A program made the translations under genes and the position numbers. Below, in pieces: positions 9,801 to 61,211 of a DNA stretch of 64,000 bases. The notes below the pieces were generated by a model, which saw only the letters and a program-made list of their open reading frames with translations, searched no databases and was not told where the DNA came from. The DNA comes from an uncultured Bacteroidia bacterium. Lineage in GTDB: Bacteria; Bacteroidota; Bacteroidia; Bacteroidales; Prolixibacteraceae. The stretch is from assembly GCA_903850335.1 (NCBI GenBank), contig CAINLJ010000147.1:1-64000 (forward strand). Reading direction: 5' to 3'. How positions within the stretch are numbered: the stretch's first letter is position 1; every line of letters starts with the position of its first letter.

Positions 9801-12800
9801 TCCATTATTCCAGTCTGTACTAATCGCACCAAGCCAGGTTCCAGGGAGACATGTAGTTGTATTGACATTCAAAACTCCGGTAGCTGTAGTACCAAAATAG
9901 GTTGAGTTTTTCACTATTGCCAATATCGAAGCCGTTCCCCCATATAAGTTTGCTGCCTGCGGTAAATTACCCAGAACAAGACTCTGAGAACGATGTGTAA
10001 ATGAACCAAGATCAGCAGACGATCCATTAATAGTAAGGATGTTCACTATTGTATCGTTTGCCGTAAACGATTTTACTCCGGTCCCAACAAGATCCAGATT
10101 TTGGTATTTAGTCTGATAGATAGTCTGAGCTCCTGCAAGCCCATAGGCTACATCATTATTATTCGTGGCAGCATCAATAACCGAAATTGTAGCAGGGCCA
10201 GCGAAGTTAAGATCAAGAGTAGCTCCCGTGGCCTGCAAAAGTTTACCTGTACCGGTAAGATCCGTGGCGATTGTCAAAGTCTTGCCATTCGTCAGCGTAA
10301 TCCCGTTCACTGTGACAGCAGGGATTGTAAACGTACCAGTAAGCGTCTGATTATTAGTATCAAATGTTTGAATTCCTGCACCTGCAGTCATTGATCCTGT
10401 ACCCAGCAGCGTAATTCCATTTTGGAAGTTAACCGGTGAGTTTCCTGAATTATTCCATGTTGCACCTGATGCGATCGAAACAAGACCTGAAAAGACCGGT
10501 GTTGCGCCAACATTGTTAATAATAAGGCTTCCGCTTGTTCCTCCACCCACGGTTGTGGTTCCGGTTACAAGCAGAGGGAAACCTCCTAAAGTTAAAGAAG
10601 AACTGTTTCCAACAGAAAGGTTGCCACCAATTGTCAAACCGGATGCTGTAGCTGTAGAAGAAGCTCCGCCACTAAGTGTTAAATTACCAGAAACAGAGGT
10701 TGTTCCTGCCAGAAATGTTTTCACTCCGGCTCCCGACAAGGTCAGGTTGTAGTAATTTACCCCACCAACAGTTTGTGCAACTGCCAATGGATAAACGACA
10801 GTACTCGTGCCAGGATTAAATATACCAGTGTTTCCTGATACAACGACACCCGGTGAAGTAAGATTGAGTGTCGATCCTGTGCCTCCGTCAAGGGTACCAG
10901 CTGTGTTGGTCCATGTGCCCGAGAATGTATGCGATAATGTATTACCGAGGCTCAGTGTACCACCGGAACCATTGATCGTTAGTCCGGCACCATTAACCGG
11001 ACCGATTAAGGTAGCGGTACCTGATGTCTTTATCATCGATATGGTTCCTGTTGTGGTAAAACCTGAAATACTTTGATCCAAAGCGCCGGCAAAGGATATG
11101 CCACCTGTTCCACTTGTTAACGTGCCTGTAGGAGTAATTGTCAGATTACCTCCCAGAGTTAAAAGGTTTGCCCCACGGGTTAAAGTCGCACCTGCATTGA
11201 TTGTTAAAGGAACACCATCTCCCAAAACTTTATCACCGTTTAACGAAACCGCACCTGTTCCTCCGATAACTATGCCTCCAAGCCCGTTGAATGTTGCAGG
11301 CCATTCGGAAGATACTGTCCTTAATGAAGCACCCGCATTATACTGAAGGGTAGCATTTGCTCCATAAATAAGTGTTCCGGTGAAAACATTCACATTCGCT
11401 CCGTTTGCAACCGAAAGTATACCGTTCACTGTCGTTGCATCACCTGCAACTGATCCAAAAGTTACAACACCTGTTCCGCCTAAAGTAAGGTTATTGAATG
11501 TTGTGCTTCCTGCTATTGTTTGGGTCACACCATTCAAATTAACAGTACCTATTGCATCAAGGAATCCTGATGATCCGTTATTATTGGTCCAGCTTCTGGC
11601 AACATTAAGTGTGTTAGCTCCTGCAAAAGAGAGTGATGCACCTGAATTGATTGTAATTGTATTACAATATTTTTGGGTACCATCGGCATTAATAACCGGT
11701 TGAACAGGTACACCTGAAATGACAACAGGGTTAATCACAACATCAGTCGAAGGATTTGGCAGTGTATTACAAGACCAGTTGGTCGGGTCAGCCCAGTCAG
11801 AAGATGTTGTTCCAAGCCATTGACCTGGAATACAAGGCGCATTACCGACATAAAGAATACCTGTTGCAGGCGCAAAGTTGACAGTATTAATCACGGTAGC
11901 CGAAGAACCCGTTCCTCCATAGGAAGTATCCACAGTCTGCGGTGTACCATTGAGAGAGAATGTCTTGGCTGTATGATTAAATGAGCCCAGGTTCATAAAC
12001 ACACTATTAACACTCGACAGATTGCCACCGATTGCAGTGTTGGCTGTAAACAATTTGCTGCCACTATTTCCAGTGAAAGCCAGATTGTTATAAGGTAAAC
12101 TTGCTAACGACTGATTAGCAGATAGATTATTGTAAGTAACAGTTCCGGTTTGGGCATTAAATACCCCGGTTGTAACAGTTGAGTTGCCACCGATATTCAG
12201 GTTACCTGAATTACCTAATAATGTCCCGGCCGAAAGTGTAAGATTACCTGTAAAAGTATTCGGACCCGTACCGAGGTCGAGTGTCCCTGTACCTGAACCA
12301 TTGACGGTCAGTCCTCCACCATTGACGCTGCCTGTAAGAACTGCTGTTCCATTTGTTTTTATCATCGACACCAGCCCTGTGGTAGTAAAGGTTCCAATAT
12401 TCTGGGCGATTGTACCTGCAATGACAACTGGAGAACTTCCACCTGTGAATGTTCCGTTATTTATGAAACTTCCAAAGAAAGTTACTCCAAAATTAGATGT
12501 TGCAAGTGCCGAACCCGAATTGATTGTTAATGGAACATCGGTTGCTGCATCTCCCAGCTGTTTGAGTGCATTCAGGGTAATGACACCTGTATTTTCAACA
12601 AGTACTCCACCTGTAGCTAAGAATGGACTTATCCATTCGGCACCTGCAGTAAAGTTTGCAGGTTTATTGTACTGAAGTCTGGCTGCGGTCCCGTAGGATG
12701 GAGCGGCAGAAACAGAGGCAGTTCCTTCCATGGAAAGAACATGGGTAACATTAGGCTGGCCAGTCAGGGTTTTGGTACCAGCACCTGTAAACGTAAGGTT

Positions 12801-47946: not shown

Positions 47947-48876
47947 TCAACGGGTGTAAGATTTCCCGGAGTGACACCCCGGAAAACATGAACCGCCATT
48001 TTGACGGGGAGCATACTTAAGCGGCATTTCCCATTCGCCAAATTGGACTTTATTTTCAATAAGATGCTCATTTGGTGCTGCATGCACATTATGGCACATT
48101 GTGCAGGTTCGTCCGCTTTTTTCAAATGAGTGAACGGTATGAAGATTCTTGTTTCCATTCCGGAAATTTGTGGCAGAAGTTGTTTGTGCCGTAAGCATCT
48201 CACTGTCGTGACATTGCCAGCACAAACCGTAAACCTCCTTTCTTAATGGTGCATATTTCCCTGTTGGAAAAGTATCCTTTAACATATTTGTATTGGTTGA
48301 CCCATGCGGATTATGACAAACTATACAGCCATCACTTTCCAGAACAGGATGAATTACCTTGCTGTATGTCAATAGCTTATCCATGTTCAGAACTTTCCTG
48401 CCAGTTTCATTTACATCTCTGTTATGGCATGCCAGGCACATCTTCTTTTCATCTGATACCAATAATTTTTTCTCGTCCGACGAATGAGGTGAATGACAAC
48501 CTGTGCAACTTTTTACGCTCTTAACCGCCTGATGAACAAATTTGACTGTATCCAGGAAATTTTTTATCCCATCATGGCAGGTATAGCATAATCCGGGAAC
48601 GTTATCACTAAGGCCTAATCCTTTACCGTTTCCATCTGTATGCTCCTTAATTTTGACTGTATGGCAATTTTCACAGGATTCAGAAGCTGGCGGATGAACC
48701 GTTTTTTTTGTGATAAGATCAAGGTGGCAGTCGCTGCACTTAGGTTCATCATTTTGACGCAATGAATCAGTTTGCCAGGTTACAACTGCCTTATTCTCCA
48801 ATCTTAATGCAGGATTAAAAAGAAATACAAGATTGATAAGGGAGATAGGTATCAGACTAATTATTCGATTTTGCAT
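47947..48876 (-). CDS. Nine-heme c-type cytochrome
   Basis: The 309-residue protein has an N-terminal hydrophobic export signal. It carries eight CxxCH motifs starting at C47, C68, C97, C124, C147, C184, C219 and C258, plus a terminal CxxxCH (C297-H302). Several are followed by xPH or NPHG, as in doubled-CxxCH cytochromes, where the extra His can be an axial ligand. It starts 2 bp after the end of the barrel gene, so it is probably translated from the same message. I infer an electron carrier on one side of the outer-membrane barrel, but whether it is periplasmic or extracellular cannot be seen. The homologous family (cytochrome c3-like, doubled CxxCH) occurs in metal-reducing and anaerobic bacteria. 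No catalytic domain was recognised. Confidence 0.88.
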   Translation of the reverse strand: MQNRIISLIPISLINLVFLFNPALRLENKAVVTWQTDSLRQNDEPKCSDCHLDLITKKTVHPPASESCENCHTVKIKEHTDGNGKGLGLSDNVPGLCYTCHDGIKNFLDTVKFVHQAVKSVKSCTGCHSPHSSDEKKLLVSDEKKMCLACHNRDVNETGRKVLNMDKLLTYSKVIHPVLESDGCIVCHNPHGSTNTNMLKDTFPTGKYAPLRKEVYGLCWQCHDSEMLTAQTTSATNFRNGNKNLHTVHSFEKSGRTCTMCHNVHAAPNEHLIENKVQFGEWEMPLKYAPRQNGGSCFPGCHSGKSYTR

Positions 48877-48878
48877 AT

Positions 48879-50840
48879 TTAAAACTTTCGTGATATTTTC
48901 AAATACGTGCCATTAAAATTAATTATTTCACCAATGTAATTCTGTCTGTAAAGTTCCAGACCAAGTGTAAGCTGAAGGTGGCTAAAAGCTGAAGTTAACT
49001 CTGTTCTTGCTGTCACCAGATTCAGGTCTATCCCTCTTCCGCTTTGTTTTCGATACATCAGGTCGACATTCAGGCTTGTCTGCTTAAAGATTGAATAGTT
49101 AATTTTTCCTGTCACATCACTATATTTTTGATATTTAGCTACTGGCTCGTCAAGCATTACATAATCCTGCATATTTCCATTTAGCATAAGAGTCAGCTTC
49201 TCCCTGATCTTTTTTTGCAAATTTGCATAATACCGCATTCTTCGGTAAGGAAGAATCGAGCTTTTATAGTCTTCATATTCGGCACCTGTCTCGATAAATC
49301 CAAAATCCAGACGGCAACCAACAAGATTTTGGGTGAAATAATTTAAGGTTACCCGGTCTGTTTTTTCAAGATTTGAGTAGCCCTGAGTGGAGTACCTGTA
49401 ATTCAGTGACAGCAAATTTTTTAGTAAGTAAATACTTGTCGAAAAAACCTGTGTGTTCGAGTCATATTTGTATGAACCAGGCTGAGTAGCATTATAGTCA
49501 ACGTATACGGTGGAATTATCCTCAATCTTACCACCTGGAATTCTCCTGATTTCAACGAAATTCTTACGACTTATTGCAAGATAATCAATTCCCTTCTGGT
49601 ATATTATTGTTCCCGTCACATCCCTCACAACGACAGATTCTATATTAATATCAGCAATTCTCAGAAGGTTAATTTTATTATCCGAAAGAACGTAACTTTC
49701 GTTAGCGACATAAACAAGGAATGGATCCGATTTATAGTCCTGATGATATCTGTCGAACCGGTAATTGATTAGCAACTGACCCGTTGGTATTTTTTTTGTG
49801 TAGTTGAATTCAATGCCTGCCCGCCGGTTGAACTCCTGGTAAACAGTGTGGTTAATAAAATTAAAATCCGCATTTATTTTAGATTGCAGACTTTCGAAAA
49901 GCTGATGCTGGAGGTGAGCGTCCACACTATGTTGGGACAGATTGCTAAAATCCTGACCAATCTTATTATAACTATAATTACCAAAGAATGTTATCCGCTT
50001 TGTTAATCCGGCATTAATATTTTCACTCGCTTGTAACCGCCTTAAATTCATGTTGCCTCTTTGATTAAAATCTGAAACCAAGGTGTTCAGATTAAACTTT
50101 CTTTTTGAACCCAGGGAGACATAACTTGTAAAATCAAGATTTTCAGTGGTATTAGCTATACGAAAAAGATTCTGATTAATATTTACATATTCATCATGTG
50201 AATATTTGAACGAATTTCTGTCGTGTGCCGAAAAAGATTTGCTCATTTGAGCTCCATATGTATTCTGATCGAGCGTATACTTACGACCGCTTTTTACCTC
50301 TTCCTCATCCCATTTTCTGCTTGACGCATTGAAAGTAATAGGAATGATTTTGTTATTTAAATTTAAAATTCCTCCGAGAAGCCGGTTTTTCGATTTTATA
50401 TTTGAAAGATTTTCCCGTGTGGAATAGCTTTCATCATAGTTCTCAAAAAAATTAAGACTAACCTTTTTCTGCTGTAAAAACTGACCATTAATACCGATCT
50501 TTTTTAGCGTTCTGACTTCAGCCTGATTGGGAGTTATGATGAATTTATCCCGGCTGCTTTCCGGCGTATAACCGGCATCAATGTCAAGCATCAAGAAATT
50601 CGGATGTACTATGGAACTGCTCGTTCTGAGTAATAATCCGCCTGAATAAAAGGAACTTTTTTGAAACTCCTTAAAATTCAATCCATTGCGTTCCTGTTCC
50701 CGATAATGCCCATAAAGCTTTGCCTCGCCGGACAGAGAATGTAGTTTCCAAAAATGGAAAGCCTCATTCTGAGAAATAGCATTACCTGATATTAATAAGC
50801 TCAATATCGGCACAAATATGTATTTCTTCTTAAGTCTCAT
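48879..50840 (-). CDS. Outer-membrane beta-barrel protein of the cytochrome cluster
   Basis: The 653-residue protein has a signal peptide (MRLKKKYIFVPILSLLISGN, cleavage near AISQ). After it come many alternating amphipathic strands rich in Tyr, Phe, Asn and Lys, ending in a C-terminal Phe (YLKISRKF), which is typical of outer-membrane barrels. An insert near residues 425-480 has the pattern VVRDVTGTIIYQKGIDYLA and RRIPGGKIEDNSTVYVDY, seen in some large barrels near cytochromes. I start at 50,840, four bases after the pentaheme gene ends. An upstream in-frame ATG at 50,906 would overlap that gene by 62 bp and bury the signal peptide. Lying between a pentaheme lipoprotein and a nine-heme cytochrome, it is a good candidate for the porin of a porin-cytochrome conduit. 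I see no sequence match to MtrB itself. Confidence 0.75.
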   Translation of the reverse strand: MRLKKKYIFVPILSLLISGNAISQNEAFHFWKLHSLSGEAKLYGHYREQERNGLNFKEFQKSSFYSGGLLLRTSSSIVHPNFLMLDIDAGYTPESSRDKFIITPNQAEVRTLKKIGINGQFLQQKKVSLNFFENYDESYSTRENLSNIKSKNRLLGGILNLNNKIIPITFNASSRKWDEEEVKSGRKYTLDQNTYGAQMSKSFSAHDRNSFKYSHDEYVNINQNLFRIANTTENLDFTSYVSLGSKRKFNLNTLVSDFNQRGNMNLRRLQASENINAGLTKRITFFGNYSYNKIGQDFSNLSQHSVDAHLQHQLFESLQSKINADFNFINHTVYQEFNRRAGIEFNYTKKIPTGQLLINYRFDRYHQDYKSDPFLVYVANESYVLSDNKINLLRIADINIESVVVRDVTGTIIYQKGIDYLAISRKNFVEIRRIPGGKIEDNSTVYVDYNATQPGSYKYDSNTQVFSTSIYLLKNLLSLNYRYSTQGYSNLEKTDRVTLNYFTQNLVGCRLDFGFIETGAEYEDYKSSILPYRRMRYYANLQKKIREKLTLMLNGNMQDYVMLDEPVAKYQKYSDVTGKINYSIFKQTSLNVDLMYRKQSGRGIDLNLVTARTELTSAFSHLQLTLGLELYRQNYIGEIINFNGTYLKISRKF

Positions 50841-50844
50841 AGCA

Positions 50845-51402
50845 TTAACGTAAGATGAAGCGGTCATCTCCGCCATGTGGATTATGGCAGTCAGTACAAT
50901 TGGCATCCTTAATATCCTGGTGTTCTTTTGCAGCCAGAACCGTTTCTGAATTGTGGCAATAAAGACAAAGTGCCTGACCAGATCTGATCAACAATTTTTC
51001 ATTCATCGACTGATGGGGGCTATGACACATAACACACTGTCCTCCACCAACGGGTCCATGCAATACCTTAAACTTAGTTGTAAAATCATCATGACACTGG
51101 TAACACAACTCTGGCAAGGAATTGTTAAGCTTTCCCATTCTGGTCCTATCGTGACACGAACTACATTCCTGCGCTTTGTATGGAGCATGAAAAAATAACC
51201 TGGGAAACATTTTCCCCATTGTGGTTTGTTTTATTGCAGTCGTATCTTTTCTGCCTAATGTGTCAGTCGGATGAACACCCACCTCACGTGAAGGATTTGG
51301 TACCCCGTCAAAGAAAAATGATAGTACTTTAATCTGACTTTGTGACGAACACCCAAACAGACTCATTAGCAGTACGAAGAAAAGCAGAGATGACAATTTC
51401 AT
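50845..51402 (-). CDS. Pentaheme c-type cytochrome lipoprotein
   Basis: The 185-residue protein has a lipoprotein signal with lipobox LFGC (lipidated Cys 18) and five CxxCH motifs at C80, C100, C123, C146 and C169, several followed by xPH. After the lipobox there is a segment KVLSFFFDGVPNP, which resembles the N-terminal region of other periplasmic cytochromes next to NHL proteins. It is probably anchored in the outer membrane, facing the periplasm, and passes electrons to the barrel complex. It starts 57 bp after the NHL lipoprotein gene and ends 4 bp before the barrel gene, so the NHL, pentaheme, barrel and nine-heme genes look like one operon. Confidence 0.88.
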   Translation of the reverse strand: MKLSSLLFFVLLMSLFGCSSQSQIKVLSFFFDGVPNPSREVGVHPTDTLGRKDTTAIKQTTMGKMFPRLFFHAPYKAQECSSCHDRTRMGKLNNSLPELCYQCHDDFTTKFKVLHGPVGGGQCVMCHSPHQSMNEKLLIRSGQALCLYCHNSETVLAAKEHQDIKDANCTDCHNPHGGDDRFILR

Positions 51403-51459
51403 CTTATTGATTGCCTGAAGAATAATTAATATGAGCGGAACTTAAATTTCCTTCTAAAT

Positions 51460-52590
51460 TCACTTAAACATTGGACCGTTAATTTCCTTCTTTTTTGCTG
51501 AACTACTTTTATCAGGTTTTTCGCCTGGCTTAAGAGGTCGAACAGCCCCGTAAACGTTCAATTTATCCGGGCCAAACTGATTGGTAATAAAAATCAGATA
51601 TTTTAATTTGAAGGAGGGATCGACAAATTTTTGAAAATATTCCAGATTATCATAATCCAATGTCACCTTCGCGGGTAACCACATATTTCCCTGACTCTTA
51701 TAACTTCCACCAAAGGACATTAAAAGTTTTCCTTTCTTATTGAAGATCTGAGTATTTTCGAAACCGGCATCGACTACAAACAAATTCGATTCCCTGTCAA
51801 CGGCTATCCCCTTGGGTCGCACAAATTGTCCTGGATTCTGCCCATAGGTTCCGATTGATTCAATAAATTCACCCTCAAGTGTGTAAATTTTTATCTTAAA
51901 GTCACCAAAATCTGTTACATATACCTTATTATCTGCAATATACAAATTTGTAGGAGAGAATAAATTTCCTTCGGCTTTACTATTGTCTTTTGGAAAAGTT
52001 CTTAGAAGTGAATGATTTGTATCCATATTATAGACAAAAATTTTATGCCCCTCAACATTTGATACCCAGATTTTATTATCCTGCACAAATACATCTGTCG
52101 GTTTGAAATTTGCTGTTTCTCCAAAACTATCCAGATATTTCCCTTTCGAGTCAAATAATACTATCTGCTTCCGCTCTGAATCGGCTATATATAAATTATC
52201 ATTACTATCAACGAAACAGTTTACAGGAACTTTCAATTCACCCTTACCCTTTGGAATGAATTGTTCAAACTTGCTCTTTTTCATATCTATAATGGCAAGT
52301 CCATGAATATAAGTGTCGCAAACAAGTATTTTGCCTCCATGAACCGCAACACCATAAGGTTTATTAATCAGTAAATCCTTCTCTTCACCGAGCATTGATT
52401 TAGAAAATGAATTACGGTTTCCGGTTATATCATGCGAAGTGCTTACTCGGGTGAGAAACTGAACCCTTGCAGTGTCGGGAGGCGCTGGAAAAATAACTAT
52501 ATTTTCGGAACTGGCTGTGGGATAAACCTTCCTGGAACAGGAGATTATAAGTGATGCAGCTAATATTAACAACAGGGACCTGATGATCAT
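51460..52590 (-). CDS. NHL-repeat beta-propeller lipoprotein
   Basis: The 376-residue protein has a lipobox ending at Cys 18 (LIISC). It continues with NHL/6-blade propeller repeats of the form KPYGVAVHGGKILVCDTYIH, CFVDSNDNLYIADSERKQI, NLYIADNKVYVTDFGDFKI and PKGIAVDRESNLFVVDAGFE. The C-terminal tail is Lys/Pro-rich (PGEKPDKSSSAKKKE). NHL propellers are protein-binding scaffolds, and genes for them are known to sit beside multiheme cytochromes in electron-transfer loci. The gene starts about 70 bp after the terminator of the tetraheme gene and leads the pentaheme-barrel-nine-heme set. Its molecular role is unknown. It may organise the surface complex or cytochrome assembly. A second NHL protein is encoded at 58.4-59.5 kb. 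Confidence 0.85.
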   Translation of the reverse strand: MIIRSLLLILAASLIISCSRKVYPTASSENIVIFPAPPDTARVQFLTRVSTSHDITGNRNSFSKSMLGEEKDLLINKPYGVAVHGGKILVCDTYIHGLAIIDMKKSKFEQFIPKGKGELKVPVNCFVDSNDNLYIADSERKQIVLFDSKGKYLDSFGETANFKPTDVFVQDNKIWVSNVEGHKIFVYNMDTNHSLLRTFPKDNSKAEGNLFSPTNLYIADNKVYVTDFGDFKIKIYTLEGEFIESIGTYGQNPGQFVRPKGIAVDRESNLFVVDAGFENTQIFNKKGKLLMSFGGSYKSQGNMWLPAKVTLDYDNLEYFQKFVDPSFKLKYLIFITNQFGPDKLNVYGAVRPLKPGEKPDKSSSAKKKEINGPMFK

Positions 52591-52661: not shown

Positions 52662-52695
52662 ACAGAAAAAGAGGGCGAATGTTCTCCGCCCTCTT
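52662..52695 (-). terminator. Rho-independent terminator after the tetraheme cytochrome gene
   Basis: A perfect 9-bp stem, aagagggcg at 52,669-52,677 and cgccctctt at 52,687-52,695, surrounds a 9-base loop. On the minus strand it is followed by a T-rich tract (tttttctgtttt). It starts about 33 bp after the stop codon of the tetraheme gene. It separates that gene from the NHL lipoprotein gene downstream. Confidence 0.85.
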
Positions 52696-52727: not shown

Positions 52728-53351
52728 TTATTTCTTATGGCAAGTCAGGCATAATGCACTCCCACTATTCGATTTTAATAGCAGGTGAGTTACGCCGGCT
52801 CCATTATGTACGTCATGACAGGATGAACATTGCAATTTACCACCAGATAACATGTTGGCGGCAATTGTACCACCAAGACCTGAAAGTGCTGTTGCTGGAT
52901 TGTTCAGACCTCCGTCGGCAGTAGCTAGCGCAGCATCATAGGTAATTGAAATCGGATGATCATTGCTCAACGATGTACCTAAAACTGAAGTACCTGTCAT
53001 CATGTTAGTACCTGTAGTTATTCCTCCGAAATTTTCAAGGGCAACAGTACCATCATGGCAACTTAGACATAGCTTTGAACTTCCGTCTGGCTGACCAGCT
53101 ACAGAATTCATCGTCAAACTCGAATAAACACCATACGTTGAAGTCGCAGAAAGCTGGTGGTTCCATAAAGGAGCATCAGTAACTGCGGTATTCGCATTGT
53201 GAGGTGTATGGCAAACAATACAAATTTCGGAGGTTGTATTCCACGCCTTTCCGGTAAAATCGTGCTTTGAACCTGCAATACTCTGGGAATATCCAAACTG
53301 AGCCAATACAAGCAAAACTGATAAAACAAATAACATTCTTAAATTTTTCAT
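52728..53351 (-). CDS. Tetraheme c-type cytochrome (OmcE-like small cytochrome)
   Basis: The 207-residue protein has a signal peptide (to about residue 23, GYSQ) and four CxxCH motifs at C44, C95, C175 and C201, the last ending three residues before the C-terminus at CHKK. Extra histidines available as axial ligands include H30, H51, H65, H132, H182 and H189. I start at 53,351 (MKNLRMLF) because the upstream in-frame ATG at 53,417 lacks an export signal and overlaps a sigma-54 promoter. Four hemes in about 200 residues is the scale of OmcE, a filament-forming cytochrome, and the neighbouring NHL proteins fit that context, but filament formation is inference. The N-terminal 205 residues of the 12-heme protein are homologous. 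The gene has its own promoter and terminator, suggesting separate, strong expression. Confidence 0.85.
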   Translation of the reverse strand: MKNLRMLFVLSVLLVLAQFGYSQSIAGSKHDFTGKAWNTTSEICIVCHTPHNANTAVTDAPLWNHQLSATSTYGVYSSLTMNSVAGQPDGSSKLCLSCHDGTVALENFGGITTGTNMMTGTSVLGTSLSNDHPISITYDAALATADGGLNNPATALSGLGGTIAANMLSGGKLQCSSCHDVHNGAGVTHLLLKSNSGSALCLTCHKK

Positions 53352-53395: not shown

Positions 53396-53411
53396 TACAA
53401 CATGCGTGCCA
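53396..53411 (-). promoter_or_regulatory. Sigma-54 (-24/-12) promoter upstream of the tetraheme gene
   Basis: The minus strand reads tggcacgcatgttgta, which fits the sigma-54 consensus TGGCACG-N4-TTGCW with one mismatch (GT for GC at -12) and exact spacing. It ends 45 bp before the tetraheme start codon. The gene just upstream on the same strand encodes a sigma-54-dependent activator, which supports the call. Confidence 0.75.
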
Positions 53412-53744
53412 AAACATTTATATATCTAATCTATAAGTATTTAGAAAATTTAGTGCGCGTTATGGAAGCTCCCTATCCGCAAAACTTGAATTAGCTCTTA
53501 AATGGCATCGGTAATTTGGGAAAATTGACGAAAGATCGGCCCATTTATAGTATAAACTATTGATTATATGATATGTATGTGGAGGACAATTGAAACTAAA
53601 TTCCATATGCACCAAAGTAATTATAACGTAATAAGACATCATAACCTTCACCCTGGCAGACAAGAAATCAAATTAAATATTATAAATAACTAATTATTAG
53701 TTAGTTACGCGTCTTGATAGGTAAAGTTCAGAATTAAACCCTCA

Positions 53745-53784
53745 AGGGGCATTTAACCCATAAGCAACTGGGCCATTTAACCCA
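53745..53784. repeat. Twin direct repeats of 15-16 bp (possible activator site)
   Basis: The plus strand has ggggcatttaaccca at 53,746-53,760 and gggccatttaaccca at 53,770-53,784, 24 bp apart, which is just over two helical turns. Each copy has TGGG/CCC-type ends. They lie just past the stop codon of the response regulator gene and about 340-390 bp upstream of the sigma-54 promoter. A role as an upstream enhancer is possible but unproven. Confidence 0.45.
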
Positions 53785-53791
53785 ATTATTG

Positions 53792-55207
53792 TCAGAGCAG
53801 GTATTTTTTTATCTTATACCGAAGTGTATCCCGGGAGATTCCAAGTAACTCAGCTGCTTTAGTCTGATTATAATCAATCTTTTGAAGTGCCTGTTTGATG
53901 AGTTGTTTCTCTATATCGTATAATGAAAGACCTTCAGTTGAAAATCCAAATTCCGGGGACCCTAACGTAACTTCAGCAGAAGGACTATCCACATATCTTG
54001 AAATTGCACCATATCGTTTTCCCTCATGGAGTGAGGCAATATCTGTTGGAAGACTGTCTGTTTGAAGGGTATTCAATGATTCAAGTATCACTGCGCGTTC
54101 CATAACATTACGCAGTTCTCTGATATTTCCCGGCCAGTCATATTGTTTTAGAATTTGAATTATAGGTTCAGTTAACTTACCTATATTTTTTTGAAACTGC
54201 ACGTTATAGTAATTTATAAAATGCTCGGCAAGTATAGTAAGGTCCTCTTTCCGTTCACGTAACGACGGAAGTGTAATCTGAAAAACCTTAAGCCTGTAAT
54301 AGAGATCCTCCCTAAAAGTTTTTTCTTCTACAGCCTTCTTTAAATCTTTGTTAGTTGCGGCCACAACCCGAATATCGACAGGAATATTAACAGTCCCCCC
54401 AAGTCGCCGGACAACTCTGTTTTCCAGGACTCCAAGTAATTTAATCTGGGTCGCCTGATTAATTTCGCCAATCTCATCCAAAAAGACTGTGCCTCCGTCA
54501 GCAACTTCGAAGAGTCCTTTTTTCATCTGTTTGGCATCTGTGAAGGCACCTTTTTCATGACCAAAAAGTTCACTTTCAAGGAGCGTTTCCACAAGTGAAG
54601 AGCAATTTATTGTAACAAAAGGATTTTTATTCCTGTCGCTTTCATTATGAATTGCCTGGGCAAACATGTCTTTCCCGGTACCACTTTCTCCCAGTAATAA
54701 TACAGTCGTTGATTTTGTTTTTGCAATTTTTTTAGAGAGCTGGAGAATCTGTTTGAATATCGCACTCTCACCAATGATGTGATCGAAGGTCACAATATCT
54801 TTTTGTTGCCGTCGCAGAACCTGAATCTCCTTACCTATTTTTAATCTCGAATTGATATTTTCCAAAACAACATCAACTTCTTCAAACGTGAATGGCTTAT
54901 TGACATACTCTGATGCCCCGGCCTTCATTGCTTTGACAGCAGTTTCGATTGAACCATAGGCAGTTATAAAAACTATGATCGTTTCCTCTTCAATAGATTT
55001 TAATTTTGCTATCACTTCCAATCCCTGCATTTTCGGCAATTTATTATCGACGAAAACAATCTCCGGGGAATTTAACTCAAATTGTCTGATCCCCTCCTCC
55101 CCCGTTTCGGCAGTGAAAACCAGGTAACCTTTCGAGGATAAATGCTTCTCCATTGACCACCGGATCAACTTTTCGTCGTCAATTATAAGGATTTTTAGCT
55201 GCTTCAT
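53792..55207 (-). CDS. Sigma-54-dependent response regulator (NtrC family)
   Basis: The 471-residue protein has a receiver domain (about 1-120, acidic pair D10/D11, phosphoacceptor D54, T82 and K104), an AAA+ sigma-54 interaction domain (about 143-370) and a Fis-type helix-turn-helix (about 430-471, ELLGISRDTLRYKIKKYL). In the AAA+ domain the Walker A motif is GESGTGKD at 173-180 and Walker B is VFLDEI at 241-246. The sigma-54-contacting loop is GAFTDA (220-225) rather than the more usual GAFTGA, a variant that occurs in the family. When phosphorylated it would remodel sigma-54 polymerase. It starts 30 bp after the sensor kinase gene, its likely partner. The nearest candidate target is the sigma-54 promoter at 53.4 kb, upstream of the tetraheme gene. 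Confidence 0.93.
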   Translation of the reverse strand: MKQLKILIIDDEKLIRWSMEKHLSSKGYLVFTAETGEEGIRQFELNSPEIVFVDNKLPKMQGLEVIAKLKSIEEETIIVFITAYGSIETAVKAMKAGASEYVNKPFTFEEVDVVLENINSRLKIGKEIQVLRRQQKDIVTFDHIIGESAIFKQILQLSKKIAKTKSTTVLLLGESGTGKDMFAQAIHNESDRNKNPFVTINCSSLVETLLESELFGHEKGAFTDAKQMKKGLFEVADGGTVFLDEIGEINQATQIKLLGVLENRVVRRLGGTVNIPVDIRVVAATNKDLKKAVEEKTFREDLYYRLKVFQITLPSLRERKEDLTILAEHFINYYNVQFQKNIGKLTEPIIQILKQYDWPGNIRELRNVMERAVILESLNTLQTDSLPTDIASLHEGKRYGAISRYVDSPSAEVTLGSPEFGFSTEGLSLYDIEKQLIKQALQKIDYNQTKAAELLGISRDTLRYKIKKYLL

Positions 55208-55237: not shown

Positions 55238-56683
55238 TCATTCAGGCAAAGAAACGAAAAAAGTACATCCTGAATCTTTATTATTCTCATACCATAAATC
55301 ACCTCCATGTCTTTCTACGATATCTTTCGATATTGGAAGACCAAGCCCTGTCCCCTGGGTGCGGGTTGTAAAGAATGGTTTAAAAATTTCTTTCCCTACG
55401 TCTGGCGAAATCCCCCCTCCATTATCGCTGATTGAAATTATAACCATTTTTGCTTCTGCATCATAACGTGTACTGTATTTAATTGTTCCATCTTCAGGAA
55501 TCGCTTGTATCGCATTTATACTTAGATTTAAAAGGACATTTTCAATAAGTTCGTGGTCGAACCGTATAGGAGGACATTCATTGCAAAGATCTAATTTCAA
55601 ATTAATTATCTTATTATGAGCCTGATTTTCGAGGAAGAATACTATGGAATTAATAACCTTGTTTATGTCGCCACTGACCAGTAGGAGTTCTTTTGACTGA
55701 GAAAATTTCAGCAAATTGGAAATAGCCTGGTTTACCCGCTTAGCCTGACGTTGAATCTCCTCAAGGATCGGTTTATTTTCTGCGTCTTTCATCTCAGACA
55801 TGATGATTTCCATTGCCTGTGATATTCCCGTAATCGGATTTCTAATCTCATGAGCTATCCTGGCCGACATTTCACCAATTGTAGCTAATTTTTCTGATTG
55901 CTTTAACTCTTTTTTATGGTACTTCTGAAGTTCTATCTGGGTTTTTTCAAAGGTATCAACCATATCATTGAAACTTTTGCCGAGATTCCCAAGCTCGCTC
56001 ACTTCAGGTATCTCCAGACGAGTCGACAAATTTCCCTCATTTATAAGGGTTATTTTCGATTTAAACTGACTGAGCGATTGTCTGATAAATTTATAATGCA
56101 AATAAGCTACAAGAGCTGTTATGCAAAGTAAAATAAACAGCGTGTAATAGATCCCAAATTGCCGTGCAAAATTAAGTATCCCCTTTGTCTCATTGCTTGA
56201 TACATCCATAACAATCATCCCAAGATTATTCTGTACCCTGCTATGACAGGCATTACAAGAATGCCGGTTATGCAATTTAATAAACACACGATAATAGGGT
56301 ACAAATTCGTCTGCATACGTCTTCATTGAGATATTCTTTTGTCCCCTGTAAAGTTCCTTGATTATAGCAGAATCGGGATATAGTGCTTTAGAATTTTCAG
56401 GGAATATAACTTTCGATTTGGCGTTTACAAGAAAGGTTCTAAGTACATTCTTGTCTTTCTCAGATTCTTTTAACATATTCCGAATAACACGGCCATCATG
56501 CTGAGTTATAGTAAAATAATACTGATCCTTTAAGAGATTGATCTGGCTAAAGGTCTCTTCCGTGTGAGAAAGAAGTTTGTCCTTTAGTATATGACTAAAA
56601 AAGGTAATCGAAATAAATGAGGATATGCTCACAACAATGATGATTGTGCCGACAATCCGTAGTCTAAAACTGAGTTTTTTCAT
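55238..56683 (-). CDS. Sensor histidine kinase with a periplasmic c-type heme site
   Basis: The 481-residue protein has two membrane helices (about 9-31 and 176-198) enclosing a periplasmic domain of about 145 residues. That domain contains CNACH at 143-147, a c-type heme attachment motif, preceded by YRVFIKLHNRHS. It is followed by HAMP (about 200-252), a HisKA domain with phosphorylated H278 (ARIAHEIRNP), and an ATPase domain with N390, DNGGG at 420-424 and GTGLGL at 444-449. Heme-bearing sensor domains of this kind detect redox state or small ligands. I infer redox sensing, because the gene lies 24 bp after a 12-heme cytochrome gene and 30 bp before the response regulator gene. The signal cannot be named from sequence. 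Confidence 0.92.
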   Translation of the reverse strand: MKKLSFRLRIVGTIIIVVSISSFISITFFSHILKDKLLSHTEETFSQINLLKDQYYFTITQHDGRVIRNMLKESEKDKNVLRTFLVNAKSKVIFPENSKALYPDSAIIKELYRGQKNISMKTYADEFVPYYRVFIKLHNRHSCNACHSRVQNNLGMIVMDVSSNETKGILNFARQFGIYYTLFILLCITALVAYLHYKFIRQSLSQFKSKITLINEGNLSTRLEIPEVSELGNLGKSFNDMVDTFEKTQIELQKYHKKELKQSEKLATIGEMSARIAHEIRNPITGISQAMEIIMSEMKDAENKPILEEIQRQAKRVNQAISNLLKFSQSKELLLVSGDINKVINSIVFFLENQAHNKIINLKLDLCNECPPIRFDHELIENVLLNLSINAIQAIPEDGTIKYSTRYDAEAKMVIISISDNGGGISPDVGKEIFKPFFTTRTQGTGLGLPISKDIVERHGGDLWYENNKDSGCTFFVSLPE

Positions 56684-56707: not shown

Positions 56708-58423
56708 TTAGTATGTTTTTGGATTGTGATCCTGACCATGACAGGTCAGCGTACAACTACCATGTCTCAACCCGGTATCTGTAAACCTGATTATCCCACC
56801 TGATGACGGAGTGACAATTCCTGTCCTGAAATTTATAAGATTCGAATTGTTAGCTGCAGTTCCCTGAGTACTGCTTATTCCATGCGGATCATGACACGTA
56901 TTGCAAGGAGCCCTTTGACTTACAATATGCAAACTATGATAGGAAAACGTATTACTGGCACTGCTTGCCAGGATATTTGTCCGGTTATGACAACTATAAC
57001 ACAAGGCATAAGCAGCTGCTGATTCTACAGTACCATTCGAACTTCTCGCACCATCAGTGGTAATATATTGCAACTTCAGAATCTGAGGATATATTGAACC
57101 ATGCGGACCAGCAGGTGCTCCTGCCCCATCACTTGCATGACATGATGTGCAATAAATAATGGTACTTGCCGAATTCGGAGCAATCAAATTAGTCGTTACC
57201 TCCGTATTATTCCTTGCCACAGCAACCGGATGAAAAGATGGATTTCCCGACGCAAATTCAAGCTGCGTGTTATTTTGACTAATGACCCTGGCTGTTGAGG
57301 AGGGTGCGGAGCCTGAACTGCCGGCATGACACCGGTAACAGATTTCATAAGAGTTGGCAGCAGTACTTACTGCAGCTCCGCTTTGATCTACCCCTTTTAC
57401 CCCCGCTAAAAACCCGTTTACTGCAGGCGCGGTCGCAGTCGCAGCATTGGAAGCATGAGGATTATGACAATCAACACATTCAACGTGCATTGAAGTAACT
57501 TTTGAAGGCTCATTGGCATCATGAACACCTATATATCCAGCGACATTGTGCTTGTATGTTTTGGCAAGCTGAGTTGCAATATTTTTTGCAGCAACATTAC
57601 CATTATGACAATCCATACAATTGCTCTCCTCTGCCTGGTATTTTAAATTCAATACATTTCCACCTGAATTATGAGGATTATGACAACTTTCGCATCCATT
57701 TTGTGCAACTGTTGTCATTGCAGGATATGTAAAAGGCCATGGATTGGATAACGTCCCATTCCATGTCTTTGCAGAGGTATTGTGGGTACTTGCTGTCCAG
57801 TAGGTTCGTTGATGACAGCTGTTACATAAATTTGAATTGGGCGAAGGTGTCACCAGAAAGTTAGACGAATAAACATCCTTGTGAGGATCATGACATGAAG
57901 TACATTGCATCCTTCCGTTTTTTAGGGAAACTGGTGCTGTGATGTTAACAGGATCCTTTAGTTGTCCGTCAGAAGTTGCCAGAGCAGAAGTATAATCAAA
58001 GGAAATCGGGTGATCATAGCGAAGATTGGTCGACAAATTAGTTATACCAGCGGGTATAAAGGTTCCAGTGGCCATTGTTATCGGAGTGGTTCTGCTTATA
58101 ACACTCCCCAATGCAACAGTTCCATCGTGACAGGAGAGACAAAGTAAGGATGATCCATCAGGCTGTCCCGGCAAAGCCTGAAGTGTAGAACTTGTATAAA
58201 GCGTATAATTTAATCCTGGATCGCTCCTGTTCCATAATGGTGCTAAGGGCCGGCTGTTATGAGGAGCGTGACAAAAGATGCAGATCTCTGTTTCGCCGGT
58301 TGCCTTCACCGTCCCGGGGCCGCTTACAGACAAATTGTGTTTTGTTGTCACTATAGATTGGGCGTTTAACTGTACAGAAAAGCCGTGAAATAGTATGACA
58401 CAAAAAATTAAAGCCTTTCTCAT
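56708..58423 (-). CDS. Twelve-heme c-type cytochrome with a tetraheme N-terminal module
   Basis: The 571-residue protein has a signal peptide (to about residue 22, LNAQ). It carries eleven CxxCH motifs (C48, C95, C174, C200, C244, C269, C316, C362, C425, C475, C507) and a terminal CxxxCH (C557-H562). Residues 25-205 are homologous to the tetraheme protein at 52.7 kb, sharing PLWN, GQPDGSS-x-LCLSCHDGTVAL, DHPIS-x3-Y-x2-ALAT-x-DG and the spacing of all four hemes. The remaining eight hemes form a C-terminal module with CHNPH and CHDPHG motifs. The first codon overlaps the stop of the NHL gene (ATGA), so translation is probably coupled. It could be an extracellular cytochrome or a cap, terminal reductase or partner of a tetraheme filament. 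Substrate and location are unknown. Confidence 0.88.
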   Translation of the reverse strand: MRKALIFCVILFHGFSVQLNAQSIVTTKHNLSVSGPGTVKATGETEICIFCHAPHNSRPLAPLWNRSDPGLNYTLYTSSTLQALPGQPDGSSLLCLSCHDGTVALGSVISRTTPITMATGTFIPAGITNLSTNLRYDHPISFDYTSALATSDGQLKDPVNITAPVSLKNGRMQCTSCHDPHKDVYSSNFLVTPSPNSNLCNSCHQRTYWTASTHNTSAKTWNGTLSNPWPFTYPAMTTVAQNGCESCHNPHNSGGNVLNLKYQAEESNCMDCHNGNVAAKNIATQLAKTYKHNVAGYIGVHDANEPSKVTSMHVECVDCHNPHASNAATATAPAVNGFLAGVKGVDQSGAAVSTAANSYEICYRCHAGSSGSAPSSTARVISQNNTQLEFASGNPSFHPVAVARNNTEVTTNLIAPNSASTIIYCTSCHASDGAGAPAGPHGSIYPQILKLQYITTDGARSSNGTVESAAAYALCYSCHNRTNILASSASNTFSYHSLHIVSQRAPCNTCHDPHGISSTQGTAANNSNLINFRTGIVTPSSGGIIRFTDTGLRHGSCTLTCHGQDHNPKTY

Positions 58424-59454
58424 TTCCTGTTTGTGTAAATTAATTGAAAAACCTGTACCCTCGAATTGTATGAATCGGCAACATAAATACGATCATGACT
58501 ATCTATAAATATACCCGTTGGAATCCAAAACTCTCCATTCCCATGACCCTGATTGCCAAATTTATAAAGCAGATTTCCTTTAATATCAAAAACCTGAACC
58601 ACATGAAAAAGGGCATCAACGACATAAATGTTACCAAACGAGTCTGTTGCAACACCTTTGGGACTGGCAAAGTAACCCGATGCATCTCCAGCCTCCCCAA
58701 AAACTGAGATTACTCCTCCATCTGAATTTAATACCTGAATACGGAAATTCATGGTATCAGATATATAAATAGTTCCTTTTGAATCGATCCAGATATGGGT
58801 GGGATAATTGAACTCTACCGGACCATTACCCCTCTTCCCGATTCTCCTGATTACATCTCCTTTTTCATTTAAGACGGCTATACGGTGACCCTTGGTTTCC
58901 AATACCCATATTTCCCTTTTCGATGATAAATATGCAATTCCGGTCGGTTGTTCCAGCGCTAAATTTTTATTCAGTACATCCAGCTTTTTCCGGTCTGGAG
59001 ATAACCGGTATATTTTTCTCGCATGTGAGTCTGTAAATAATAAACTTTTATCAGGACCGGAACAAATTCCAACAAGTGAAGACATATCAAATTCGCTTTT
59101 TGCGATCGATTGGGGGATATGACCCACCTCTTGTTGTACCCGAAACACTGTTTTGTTCCCCTGGTCCAGGATCCAGAAATCGTCTGTATTTTCGGCAAAT
59201 ACAGAAACCGGATTACGCAGGGCAGGTGGCTTTATCCCAAATAAAATTGAATTAAAATTGTCTTTAAATTGTTTGCTATGCTGCTTTTTACCTGGTGAAG
59301 GCCATGTTGTAACCCATTCAATATGTGGATATTCAGACGTGACTGCCGCTGAGTTTATTTTGGAATTCTGCACCTCTGAAATATTCTTTGCAGATACATT
59401 AATCTGAATTAGAATAACCAGGAAAAGAATAATATAATGCTTAGTTGAGATCAT
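58420..59454 (-). CDS. NHL-repeat beta-propeller protein, secreted or membrane-anchored
   Basis: The 344-residue protein has an N-terminal export signal (STKHYIILFLVILIQINVSA) followed by about six propeller blades. Examples are PTGIAYLSSKREIWVLETKG, YPTHIWIDSKGTIYISDTMN, PKGVATDSFGNIYVVDALFH and PTGIFIDSHDRIYVADSYNS. I start at 59,454. ATGs at 59,463 and 59,511 are in frame but either add little or push the hydrophobic segment inward. It overlaps the 12-heme gene by four bases, so the pair is translationally coupled, as expected for partners. NHL proteins next to extracellular cytochromes are thought to help assembly or surface organisation. Unlike the second NHL protein (51.5 kb), it has no lipobox. 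The restriction-gene relic ends only about 65 bp upstream. Confidence 0.85.
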   Translation of the reverse strand: MISTKHYIILFLVILIQINVSAKNISEVQNSKINSAAVTSEYPHIEWVTTWPSPGKKQHSKQFKDNFNSILFGIKPPALRNPVSVFAENTDDFWILDQGNKTVFRVQQEVGHIPQSIAKSEFDMSSLVGICSGPDKSLLFTDSHARKIYRLSPDRKKLDVLNKNLALEQPTGIAYLSSKREIWVLETKGHRIAVLNEKGDVIRRIGKRGNGPVEFNYPTHIWIDSKGTIYISDTMNFRIQVLNSDGGVISVFGEAGDASGYFASPKGVATDSFGNIYVVDALFHVVQVFDIKGNLLYKFGNQGHGNGEFWIPTGIFIDSHDRIYVADSYNSRVQVFQLIYTNRK

Positions 59455-59518
59455 TTTAGCCATAGCTGTAATTAAAAAATGACAGTGAAAACATCGCAAA
59501 TTTGTTTTCAATTTTCCA

Positions 59519-61211
59519 TTAAAACAAATTCCATGCTAAGAATCCGGCAAATGAACCATTAAGACTCTCCCGACACAATTTCAGAGGTTTTTTTATGATA
59601 GTTAAAAATTCTTCTAATCTATATGCACCATCAACCGTTCGTCTCTCATAAACCATAAAATAGCGGAAACTATTTCCCGCTTTACTTTTACATAACTCAC
59701 CAAGTTTGATTTTCTGTTCGGCATCCAGATTATCCCCTTTGGTTTCAAGCAAAATGATTTTTCCGCTCTTCGTTTGAACAATAAAATCAGGATAGTGATT
59801 GATAAATCCGTTAATCCGAAAGCCCCTCCGTTCAATATTACTGGTCCAAAAGGCAACATTTGGCATATTCCCAATCTCATTAATAACCCTTTCTTCAAAT
59901 CCGTTCATCCCGCCTTCCCTCTCATAGAGTGATTTCGTAATATTCTTCGATGTCTCACCGGGTGATATATAACTGGGTAAAGTATAAGACGGCTTTATAA
60001 AAACCTTATCAGTATCAAGAAAATCCTTAAATTTTTGTTCTGCAAATACATCCGATAACATCCTGATCTTTATCTTTATTTTATTCGTATAGGTGTACTT
60101 CTGATTGTAAAAATCGGAAAATTGCTCATCTGTAAAATCTTCCAAAACACGCTGAATATACCTTTCTATCTCCTTGTCCGGAATAGGATACATGTTCCCG
60201 ATCACCTCCATAATGAATTTTGTAGTCGTTTTTATGCGCCCATCATTTCGGGATGGATCCAAAATATACGATACCAGACTATCCTTTACCTCTCCGTCGA
60301 GCCTGATAAAAGTTGGTGTGTGCTCCTTAACAGTTTCATCCAGATCAACTTTGTAAAGTTCAGAAGTGATACTGTCGAAGGCAATATTGGTATCCGACTT
60401 TCCCAAGGCAAAACCCTCCAGAAGGTTCTCCTTCTCCAAAGGCCACTCCTCCTCCCTTTTTCCAAAAAGGTCATTGGCTGGCACTTTCAGAAAAAACTGC
60501 GGCAAAACAATCTGAGCCGCCTGTTGCTTAAAAATCTCCTTTATCTCATAGGTCTTCACAAGTTGTTGTATTTCATTAGGTAAGATAGGAAGGTTTTTCG
60601 ATTCAACTTCGTCTTTAAAATTCTTGCCACTTTTAGGTTGCGCCTGAAACAAAACAATCGGACGACTATATTTCCCACCCTTCATCTCCTCCTCACTGGC
60701 TTGCAATTCAAGTCGCTTCTGCAATTGCAAAGCTGAATTAATCACCTTAAGCATATCGACACTGAGCTCACTCTCTGCATTGTGGCTCTAATCAACGATG
60801 ACCACCGGATTCAGAAAATCGATAACAGCAACAAGGGTTATTTCGGCTTCATTACCTAACAGGTTTTCAAACGATTGGAGGTTTCCGTTCTCCTGGAATA
60901 CCTTCCTGTCATCTTTGTTTTTGGCCCTTAAACTATCAAAGCTAAAAACCAGAATATTCAGCTGCTCTCTGATTGAAGTTGCGTTAAATCCGGACCCCTG
61001 CAAAAGGGTTGACTTTTCAAAGATCTCAACCTTATTCCCAAAATGTGAATTAATCTTTTGACGGTAGGTGTGCGAAGTATCTTTCAGGTTCTTAATAGTC
61101 TGGTCGAGAATCGTAATGGAAGGGACCAGCCAGACAACCGCCTTGGGCCTGTCGTAGGCAAAGGAATCGAAGATCGTTAATGACTTGTTGTTGGTAGGGC
61201 TTAAGTTCCAT
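59519..61211 (-). pseudogene. res: Decayed type III restriction endonuclease subunit (res)
   Basis: The remnant begins with the usual Res start, MELKPYQQQVIND, at 61,211, 7 bp after the RhuM stop. It then jumps, with a frame change, to TIFDSFAYDRPKAVVWLVPS, so the segment with helicase motif I (Walker A) is missing. At 60,788 the DEAH box reads VVIVD-stop-SHN: TAG replaces the GAG of the catalytic glutamate, and the frame continues intact beyond it. After KVINS the text goes straight to ALQLQKRLELQ, and after AQPKSGKN to FKDE, so segments that normally carry motifs III and V-VI appear to be deleted. The C-terminal nuclease is still visible (HYPDFIV, then ILLETKG, a PD-(D/E)xK site). An intact Res is near 900 residues, against about 560 left here. 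It cannot make a working helicase. Confidence 0.88.

Follow-up and report, generated by a model that had tools for sequence, protein, structure and literature searches.

Described systems and the arrangement of the locus

The sigma-54 regulome of Desulfovibrio vulgaris, as described (PMC4641369), combines NtrC-type regulators with distant upstream activating sites and -24/-12 promoters, four of which lie more than 300 bp from their cognate site, and the promoter consensus is given as tGGcacg / tTGCt. That sigma-54 promoters function in Bacteroidota is reported from promoter mutagenesis in Flavobacterium psychrophilum (PMC9723704). Heme-c sensor domains are described for GSU0935 and GSU0582 of Geobacter (structures 3b42 and 3b47; PMC8396549), in which the axial ligand switches with the redox state and the output is a chemotaxis module, and as the sCache_heme type, which according to the preprint describing it (PMC12889525) is also found fused to histidine kinases and includes a signalling-linked protein that acts as a NO sensor.

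Multiheme cytochromes beside NHL-repeat proteins are described in Desulfovibrio ferrophilus (DFE_0448-0451, DFE_0461-0465; PMC9769857), where the products are presumed to be located close to the outer membrane; in the same report the genome shows no apparent porin-cytochrome conduit, and the deletion of cytochromes caused no defect in Fe(III) reduction. An uncharacterised Bacteroidetes cluster from an electrode community (PMC8258643) is described as combining six multiheme cytochromes with a predicted outer-membrane beta-barrel, its best matches being in Bacteroidetes/Ignavibacteriae; the main text of that report contains none of the words sigma-54, histidine kinase and regulator.

The stretch of DNA analysed in this study (64,000 nucleotides, hereafter the window) carries a tetraheme cytochrome gene behind a sensor kinase and an NtrC-type regulator (Table 1). 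Each part of the circuit is of a known kind. A description of the wiring, of its spread and of the dyad within a coding gene was not found in the open-access literature searched, nor was any circuit that regulates multiheme clusters in Bacteroidota or Calditrichota. To our knowledge, the control of multiheme machinery outside the model electron-exporters is poorly known. The locus shares with the D. vulgaris regulome (PMC4641369) the layout given above, and differs from it in its target, a tetraheme gene occurring mostly in MAGs of Bacteroidota and Calditrichota, and in the -12 element, which in the present loci mostly reads TTGT. By description, the neighbourhood of multiheme cytochromes and NHL-repeat proteins is like that in D. 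ferrophilus, and the combination of multiheme cytochromes with a predicted barrel is like that in the electrode-community cluster.

Our main reading, to which we assign a probability of roughly 0.87, is that a sigma-54 promoter, switched through the dyads by a heme-c kinase and the adjacent NtrC-type regulator, drives the single tetraheme gene. RNA polymerase with RpoN would wait as a closed complex at 53411-53396, and the kinase would sense a periplasmic condition through covalent heme c in its Cache-type domain and phosphorylate D54 in the receiver of the regulator. The phosphorylated regulator would assemble on the tandem TGGGN8CCCA dyads 3' of its own stop codon, the linker of about 330 bp would loop, and the GAFTDA loop would remodel the holoenzyme. 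The tetraheme cytochrome alone would be transcribed, up to the terminator, and would probably feed the neighbouring NHL/barrel/multiheme set. The circuit as predicted is complete, with a sensor on the outer face that likely carries heme, an activator, an enhancer, a promoter, a single target gene and a terminator; relatives belonging to several phyla have the same wiring, which may show how the conditions for electron export are sensed.

Table 1. Features of the locus with their positions in the window and the basis of each call
Feature	Position	Strand	Basis or remark
8-CXXCH cytochrome	47947-48876	minus	
Putative outer-membrane barrel	48879 to ~50840	minus	by eye and gene context
5-CXXCH lipoprotein	50845-51402	minus	lipoprotein call by eye and gene context
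NHL lipoprotein	51460-52590	minus	lipoprotein call by eye and gene context
Intrinsic terminator behind tetraheme gene	52669..52695	minus	fold and recurrence
Tetraheme c-type cytochrome, 207 aa, 4 CXXCH	52728..53351	minus	
-24/-12 (sigma-54-type) promoter of tetraheme gene, TGGCACGCATGTTGTA	53396..53411	minus	motif and conservation in relatives
Candidate proximal enhancer dyad, TGGGTTAAATGCCCCT, one mismatch	53745..53760	minus	conserved tandem dyad
Candidate distal enhancer dyad, TGGGTTAAATGGCCCA	53769..53784	minus	7 bp after regulator stop codon
NtrC-type response regulator / sigma-54 activator	53792..55207	minus	receiver, AAA+, Fis-type HTH
GAFTDA loop, GAFTGA variant	54533..54550	minus	sequence and linked loci
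Sensor histidine kinase: periplasmic, predicted heme-c Cache-type domain, HAMP, HisKA, HATPase	55238..56683	minus	domains and model
Predicted heme-binding motif CNACH in kinase sensor domain	56243..56257	minus	sequence
Cytochrome, 11 CXXCH, second regulator-operon gene	56708..58423	minus	
NHL/6-bladed beta-propeller protein, first regulator-operon gene	58420..59463	minus	
Single perfect dyad in first NHL coding sequence, TGGGTCATATCCCCCA	59111..59126	minus	candidate downstream enhancer
Sigma-54-like element with AG at -24, TAGCATGGAATTTGTT	59523..59538	minus	candidate regulator-operon promoter

The -24/-12 site and its conservation

The promoter site is composed of TGGCAC as the -24 element, a 5-bp spacer and TTGTA as the -12 element. 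GG at -24 and TG at -12, the features that with their fixed spacing define a sigma-54 promoter, are both present, and relative to TGGCAC-N5-TTGCW there is one mismatch, T for C in the -12 element. The sequence-only reading had described a near-consensus sigma-54 match with exact spacing and one mismatch, 45 bp before the start codon and just downstream of a sigma-54 activator gene; this description was borne out, including the position of the activator gene, with the distance from the site to the ATG at 53351 recounted as 44 bases (the stated figure being correct within one base). An alternative longer open reading frame starting at 53417 would place the site inside the coding sequence; the ATG at 53351 is the start in all four aligned relatives, and the signal peptide begins there (by eye). 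The search for rpoN proposed in the same reading returned a 499-aa open frame in the same genome (PF04552, E 6e-53). We predict that 53411-53396 is very probably the functional on-switch of the four-heme cytochrome gene.

Among 60 searched relatives the tetraheme gene was found in one, a genome of a different genus in the same family (G021). Its gene order is that of the window (NHL, multiheme cytochrome, kinase, regulator, tetraheme, NHL protein, multiheme lipoprotein, barrel, multiheme), and TGGCATATTTGTTGTA is located upstream of its tetraheme gene, 45 bp from the ATG; TGGCATatttgTTGTA is retained at this distance in the syntenic locus. A wide scan of named genome contigs, from which the best 80 of at least 551 relative-encoding stretches were taken, gave 77 loci (with MAG labels of Bacteroidota, Calditrichota, Chlorobiota/Ignavibacteria, Marinimicrobia, proteobacteria and others), and together with G021 and the window 79 loci were compared. 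Loci with an adjacent kinase/NtrC-type activator were considered as linked (25 of 79); in 24 of them it is co-directional and at most 1.5 kb upstream, and in L022 it is divergent. The 54 unlinked loci, which have relatives of the same genes without an adjacent kinase/regulator, served as a natural control. L063 was counted as unlinked though its contig begins inside a regulator gene, of which it has the end only, and the distant kinase of L076, which is without CXXCH and on the other strand, was scored as non-adjacent.

A sigma-54-like site scoring at least 9 of 11 within 200 bp upstream of the gene was found in 27 of the 79 loci (best-80 set), against 0.8 expected from Markov shuffles. Such sites were present in 19 of 25 linked vs 8 of 54 unlinked loci (Fisher p 2e-7), and within 300 bp in 21 of 25 vs 8 of 54 (p 4e-9), these p-values overstating independence because the loci share ancestry. 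This contrast between linked and unlinked loci makes the prediction of the circuit sharp. Control windows of 300 bp in the linked loci reached 9 in 53 of 1900 cases. Of the 22 linked sites scoring at least 8, 14 are located 39-50 bp before the start. The six linked loci failing the 200-bp test are L052 and L058 (both scoring 7), L074 (6), L076 and L082 (both 8), and L070, which has a good site at 228 bp. The site found in L082 within 300 bp, at a distance of 266 bp, is probably spurious.

These counts bear on the explanation that the resemblance arose by chance and that the tetraheme gene is read from an ordinary main-sigma-factor promoter, which we consider very unlikely. Matches with at most one mismatch are no rarer in the window than chance would have them (5 vs 2.6 expected, with at least 5 in 13 of 100 shuffles), so that the match of TGGCACGCATGTTGTA taken alone is little proof and the case for the site rests on its conservation. 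The site, however, is kept at a similar distance across several phyla, far above the shuffles and the control windows, and no same-strand sigma-70 match was found between regulator and gene using an E. coli-type pattern, which does not model this phylum.

The third base of the -12 element is T in 15, A in 5 and C, the canonical base, in 2 of the 22 linked sites. In the window's own genome (G000; 5.5 Mb, 284 contigs) there are 15 exact matches to TTGGCAYN5TTGYW and 4 to a control pattern. Seven of the 15 were judged to precede genes, and five of the seven, the window site included, have TTGT. The T in the -12 element suggests a taste of the lineage. Among the genes behind the six other gene-start sites (L122, L125, L126, L131, L133, L134; TTGT in four) are, as named by eye, one for an HtrA-like protease and one for a serpin-like protein.

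The regulator has the Pfam domains Response_reg, Sigma54_activat and HTH_8, with the phospho-acceptor D54 and the Walker A motif GESGTGKD, as defines an NtrC-type protein. Its GAFTDA loop is among the motif variants that are expected to keep activity according to the D. vulgaris study (PMC4641369), and GAFTDA is present in all 24 readable regulators of the 25 linked loci. The idea that GAFTDA and the T at -12 form a co-evolved pair was rejected: the GAFTDA regulators of L022 and L047 adjoin TTGC sites, and the TTGT at other gene-start sites of the genome contradicts it as well.

Good sites (score at least 9) in unlinked loci were found in L038, L053, L054, L066, L068, L073, L075 and L083, with C as the third base of the -12 element in six of the eight; the upstream sequence of L038 and L068 is short. 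L075, from a Geopsychrobacter MAG, has a perfect 11/11 sigma-54-like site. As far as such sites indicate, the tetraheme family may elsewhere be under sigma-54 control through other activators. L035, which was counted as unlinked, has a GAFTDA regulator at a distance of about 2.7 kb upstream; it lacks both a good site and a dyad pair.

Tandem dyads and the regulator operon

The two dyads behind the regulator gene are 24 bp apart from start to start, and the proximal one is located 333 bp before the -24 element. Their counterparts in G021 are two copies of TGGGGCATATAACCCA, likewise 24 bp apart and soon 3' of the regulator stop codon. Dyad pairs were defined as two copies of TGGGN8CCCA within 700 bp, spaced by 21-25 bp and each allowed one mismatch. 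By this definition pairs were found in 18 of 25 linked vs 1 of 54 unlinked loci (best-80 set), the one being L063. The spacing within the 18 linked pairs is 22-24 bp, about two helical turns, and all 18 are located 3' of the regulator gene. At the set stringency no pair was found in the linked loci L015, L022, L046, L047, L058, L074 and L076; by eye, the regulator stop codon is followed in L015 by one perfect dyad and one with two mismatches, and in L058 by two dyads with two mismatches each. A strict tandem-pair pattern matched in 1 of 61 genomes (the own genome and 60 relatives), namely G021, a count that sets no bound on the distribution because the window's own mismatched pair is missed by it. 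The claim of a sigma-54 promoter, originally made from the window's sequence, gains support from two elements, the site and the tandem dyads, that are conserved in regulator-carrying loci. The tandem dyads, the kinase sensor domain with its predicted heme and the further dyad and promoter-like element of the regulator operon are additions to that sequence-only reading. In G021 (L003, ~1105-1165) a TTAGTGAGGGTTTCACTCAAA-like repeat occurs twice, followed by an inverted copy, between the regulator stop codon and the dyads (by eye).

The dyad pairs also bear on the question of which activator is involved. We consider it quite unlikely that the promoter is real and switched by a different activator of the genome, with the adjacent regulator controlling something else. 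This explanation could draw on the six full-length sigma-54 activators encoded in the genome (with the loops GAFTSA, GAFTGA, GAFTDA, which is the window's, GSFTGA, GSFTDA and GSFTGS) and on the eight of 54 loci that have a good site and no adjacent regulator. Against this, both the site (19 of 25 vs 8 of 54) and the dyad pairs (18 of 25 vs 1 of 54) co-occur with the adjacent regulator, the dyads are located directly 3' of its gene, and among the matches to TGGGNNAWATNNCCCA in the own genome with at most one mismatch no second place with two copies about 24 bp apart was found. Two further perfect dyads in the genome (C47 and C255) have no cytochrome adjoining them, as inspected by eye.

The tandem dyads are discussed here as a predicted enhancer, very probably that of the adjacent regulator, which would bind them. 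Alternatively, another protein could use them as its operator, or they could be a structure at the end of the regulator-operon transcript, in keeping with their position close behind the regulator stop codon and with the long perfect inverted repeats that they form in L014, L033 and L052. We regard this as unlikely, since the two units stand in a 22-24 bp register and each is a dyad, as expected of tandem activator sites, a third copy is retained within a coding gene, and the dyads are without the terminal T-run of a terminator (by eye).

The NHL gene, the 11-CXXCH cytochrome gene, the kinase gene and the regulator gene follow each other in close succession and are referred to as the regulator operon. 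The dyad within the NHL coding sequence was found, with at most one mismatch and in aligned codons, in 12 of 15 linked loci having the NHL gene and in 0 of 29 unlinked loci, 25 of which are alignable there (Fisher p 8e-8 for the 25); some of the unlinked NHL relatives occupy other places in their loci, possibly as paralogues. Mere conservation of the protein was considered as an explanation and is unlikely, as the encoded residues vary (V/A/E, H/D/E/K, I/M, P/T, Q/H). The third codon positions that fall within the fixed letters of the dyad are G and C in 12 of 12 cases, and comparable codons of the NHL genes have G and C there in 219 of 902 and 120 of 324 cases, respectively.

The element TAGCATGGAATTTGTT precedes the ATG of the first NHL gene by 59 bp. 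Elements of the form TAGCAY-GAAAW-TTGCT were found in L014, L042 and L044, 404-427 bp before the intragenic dyad (the distance in L044 spans undetermined bases). L021 has TAGCATATTTTTTGCT 31 bp before the NHL start; instead of the intragenic dyad this locus has a pair of dyads, located about 100-140 bp upstream of the TAGCA element. Including the window, five linked loci have a TAGCA element before the NHL gene. A scan of the 250 bp before the start used found it in 4 of 14 linked vs 0 of 28 unlinked loci (0.01 and 0.05 expected), with the pattern chosen after the first hits and L021 as the sole fresh find; L044 was missed because a later start was taken. The 64-kb window has one match to the TAGCA-type pattern vs 0.5 expected, which is unsurprising, and the argument for the element is thus its shared position. 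With AG in place of GG at -24 it would be a weak promoter, and judged by these elements autoregulation of the regulator operon is probable. A further candidate sigma-54 promoter, found in five linked loci (L051, L070, L027, L033, L067) at 349 bp past the intragenic dyad, was set aside because it falls in codons of an apparent NHL repeat motif, where conservation of the protein can explain the match.

We tentatively propose, at somewhat less than even odds, that a self-reinforcing circuit with two promoters is common to the Bacteroidota-Calditrichota branch. The heme-c Cache kinase and the GAFTDA activator would read the periplasmic redox state or NO. In the output arm, a strong GG-type -24/-12 promoter with a tandem upstream enhancer would drive the single tetraheme cytochrome. 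In the feedback arm, a weak AG-type promoter (TAGCAY-N5-TTGYT) would raise the sensor-regulator operon with the help of an enhancer dyad that is hidden among the codons of the operon's first gene, some 400 bp downstream of the promoter. If so, the coding sequence carries a conserved regulatory word, and the intragenic dyad may offer a clean example of selection acting on an enhancer that lies within codons.

Terminator, following genes and the predicted heme-c Cache sensor

The 76 nt around the terminator behind the tetraheme gene fold with -21.5 kcal/mol (z -3.1). Terminator-like hairpins with T-runs were found in 21 of 24 linked loci vs 1.8 expected in shuffles (L051 ended too early), and in 31 of 53 unlinked loci vs 3.8 expected. 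The sequence-only reading had held that site and terminator together define a single-gene regulated unit. The terminator stands and recurs in relatives; as a mark of the regulator-linked unit it was rejected, since 31 of the 53 unlinked loci have such structures too, and the single-gene unit is therefore a habit of the tetraheme family and not of the regulator. Read-through past the terminator into the next gene is possible.

The four genes following the terminator (47947..52590) occur in identical order in L009. Gene order and CXXCH counts fit those of an outer-membrane electron conduit, which the NHL/barrel/multiheme set resembles and as which it may act by this analogy; the barrel protein matched no Pfam family.

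The kinase has a single CXXCH, in its N-terminal part. The motif is present in 22 of 22 kinases beside linked activators and precedes the kinase domain in each of the 21 that were inspected (all but that of L022). An alignment of 18 sensors (A4; the window and 17 of 19 sensors) was constructed, from which L044 (truncated), L074 (distant) and L009 were left out. C143, C146 and H147 are invariant in 18 of 18 aligned sensors. The same holds for H196, a residue close to where the second membrane helix ends on the inner side.

As judged from sequence and model, the CXXCH domain is located between two membrane helices. The model of residues 1-202 (mean pLDDT 78.8, pTM 0.62) has a Cache-type fold, in which the motif lies in a short helix (141-145) that is followed by the last strand (153-162). 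Both the periplasmic Cache-type domain between two membrane helices and the CXXCH directly ahead of the last strand are shared with GSU0935/GSU0582 and sCache_heme as described (PMC8396549, PMC12889525). Unlike GSU0935/0582, the window sensor feeds a histidine kinase, which is predicted to pair with the adjacent regulator in a phosphorelay.

Compared with solved structures, the alignment profile matched GSU0935 (3b42), the nearest by this measure, with E 4e-4 and GSU0582 (3b47) with E 0.03. Foldseek ranked 3b42 second (E 2e-5, rmsd 14) behind a WalK model. By VIA-align, Tll0287 (5b82) gave Z 9.7 (rmsd 3.4 over 121 residues) and 3b42 gave Z 7.8 (rmsd 2.2 over 82 residues), with several heme-free Cache domains ranking above both. 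The best structural matches of the model are Cache domains without heme (WalK, KinD). Because heme-free Cache domains rank above the heme-bearing ones, the fold is assigned as Cache and the predicted attachment of heme is based on the CXXCH motif.

The window sensor scored below the Pfam cut-offs of PF21563 (19.3 vs 27 bits) and PF11845 (14.8 vs 24.1 bits), and weak matches among the 18 sensors were to PF21563 in 13 (best E 3e-4), to PF11845 in 3 and to dCache_1 in 7. It looks like the heme-c sensors GSU0935/0582, as far as its sequence indicates, and is a non-member by the models PF21563 and PF11845. Met, the redox-switched ligand of the Geobacter domains, was not found among the invariant columns of the 18-sensor alignment. 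The signal of the kinase is most likely the redox state or NO.

G021 has a second tetraheme paralogue (L010, 8581-9246); the gene behind it encodes a hybrid kinase (9522-11474) whose sensor is of the Tll0287 type, with PF11845 above the cut-off. This hybrid kinase is likely, by sequence, a further heme-sensing kinase adjoining the tetraheme family.
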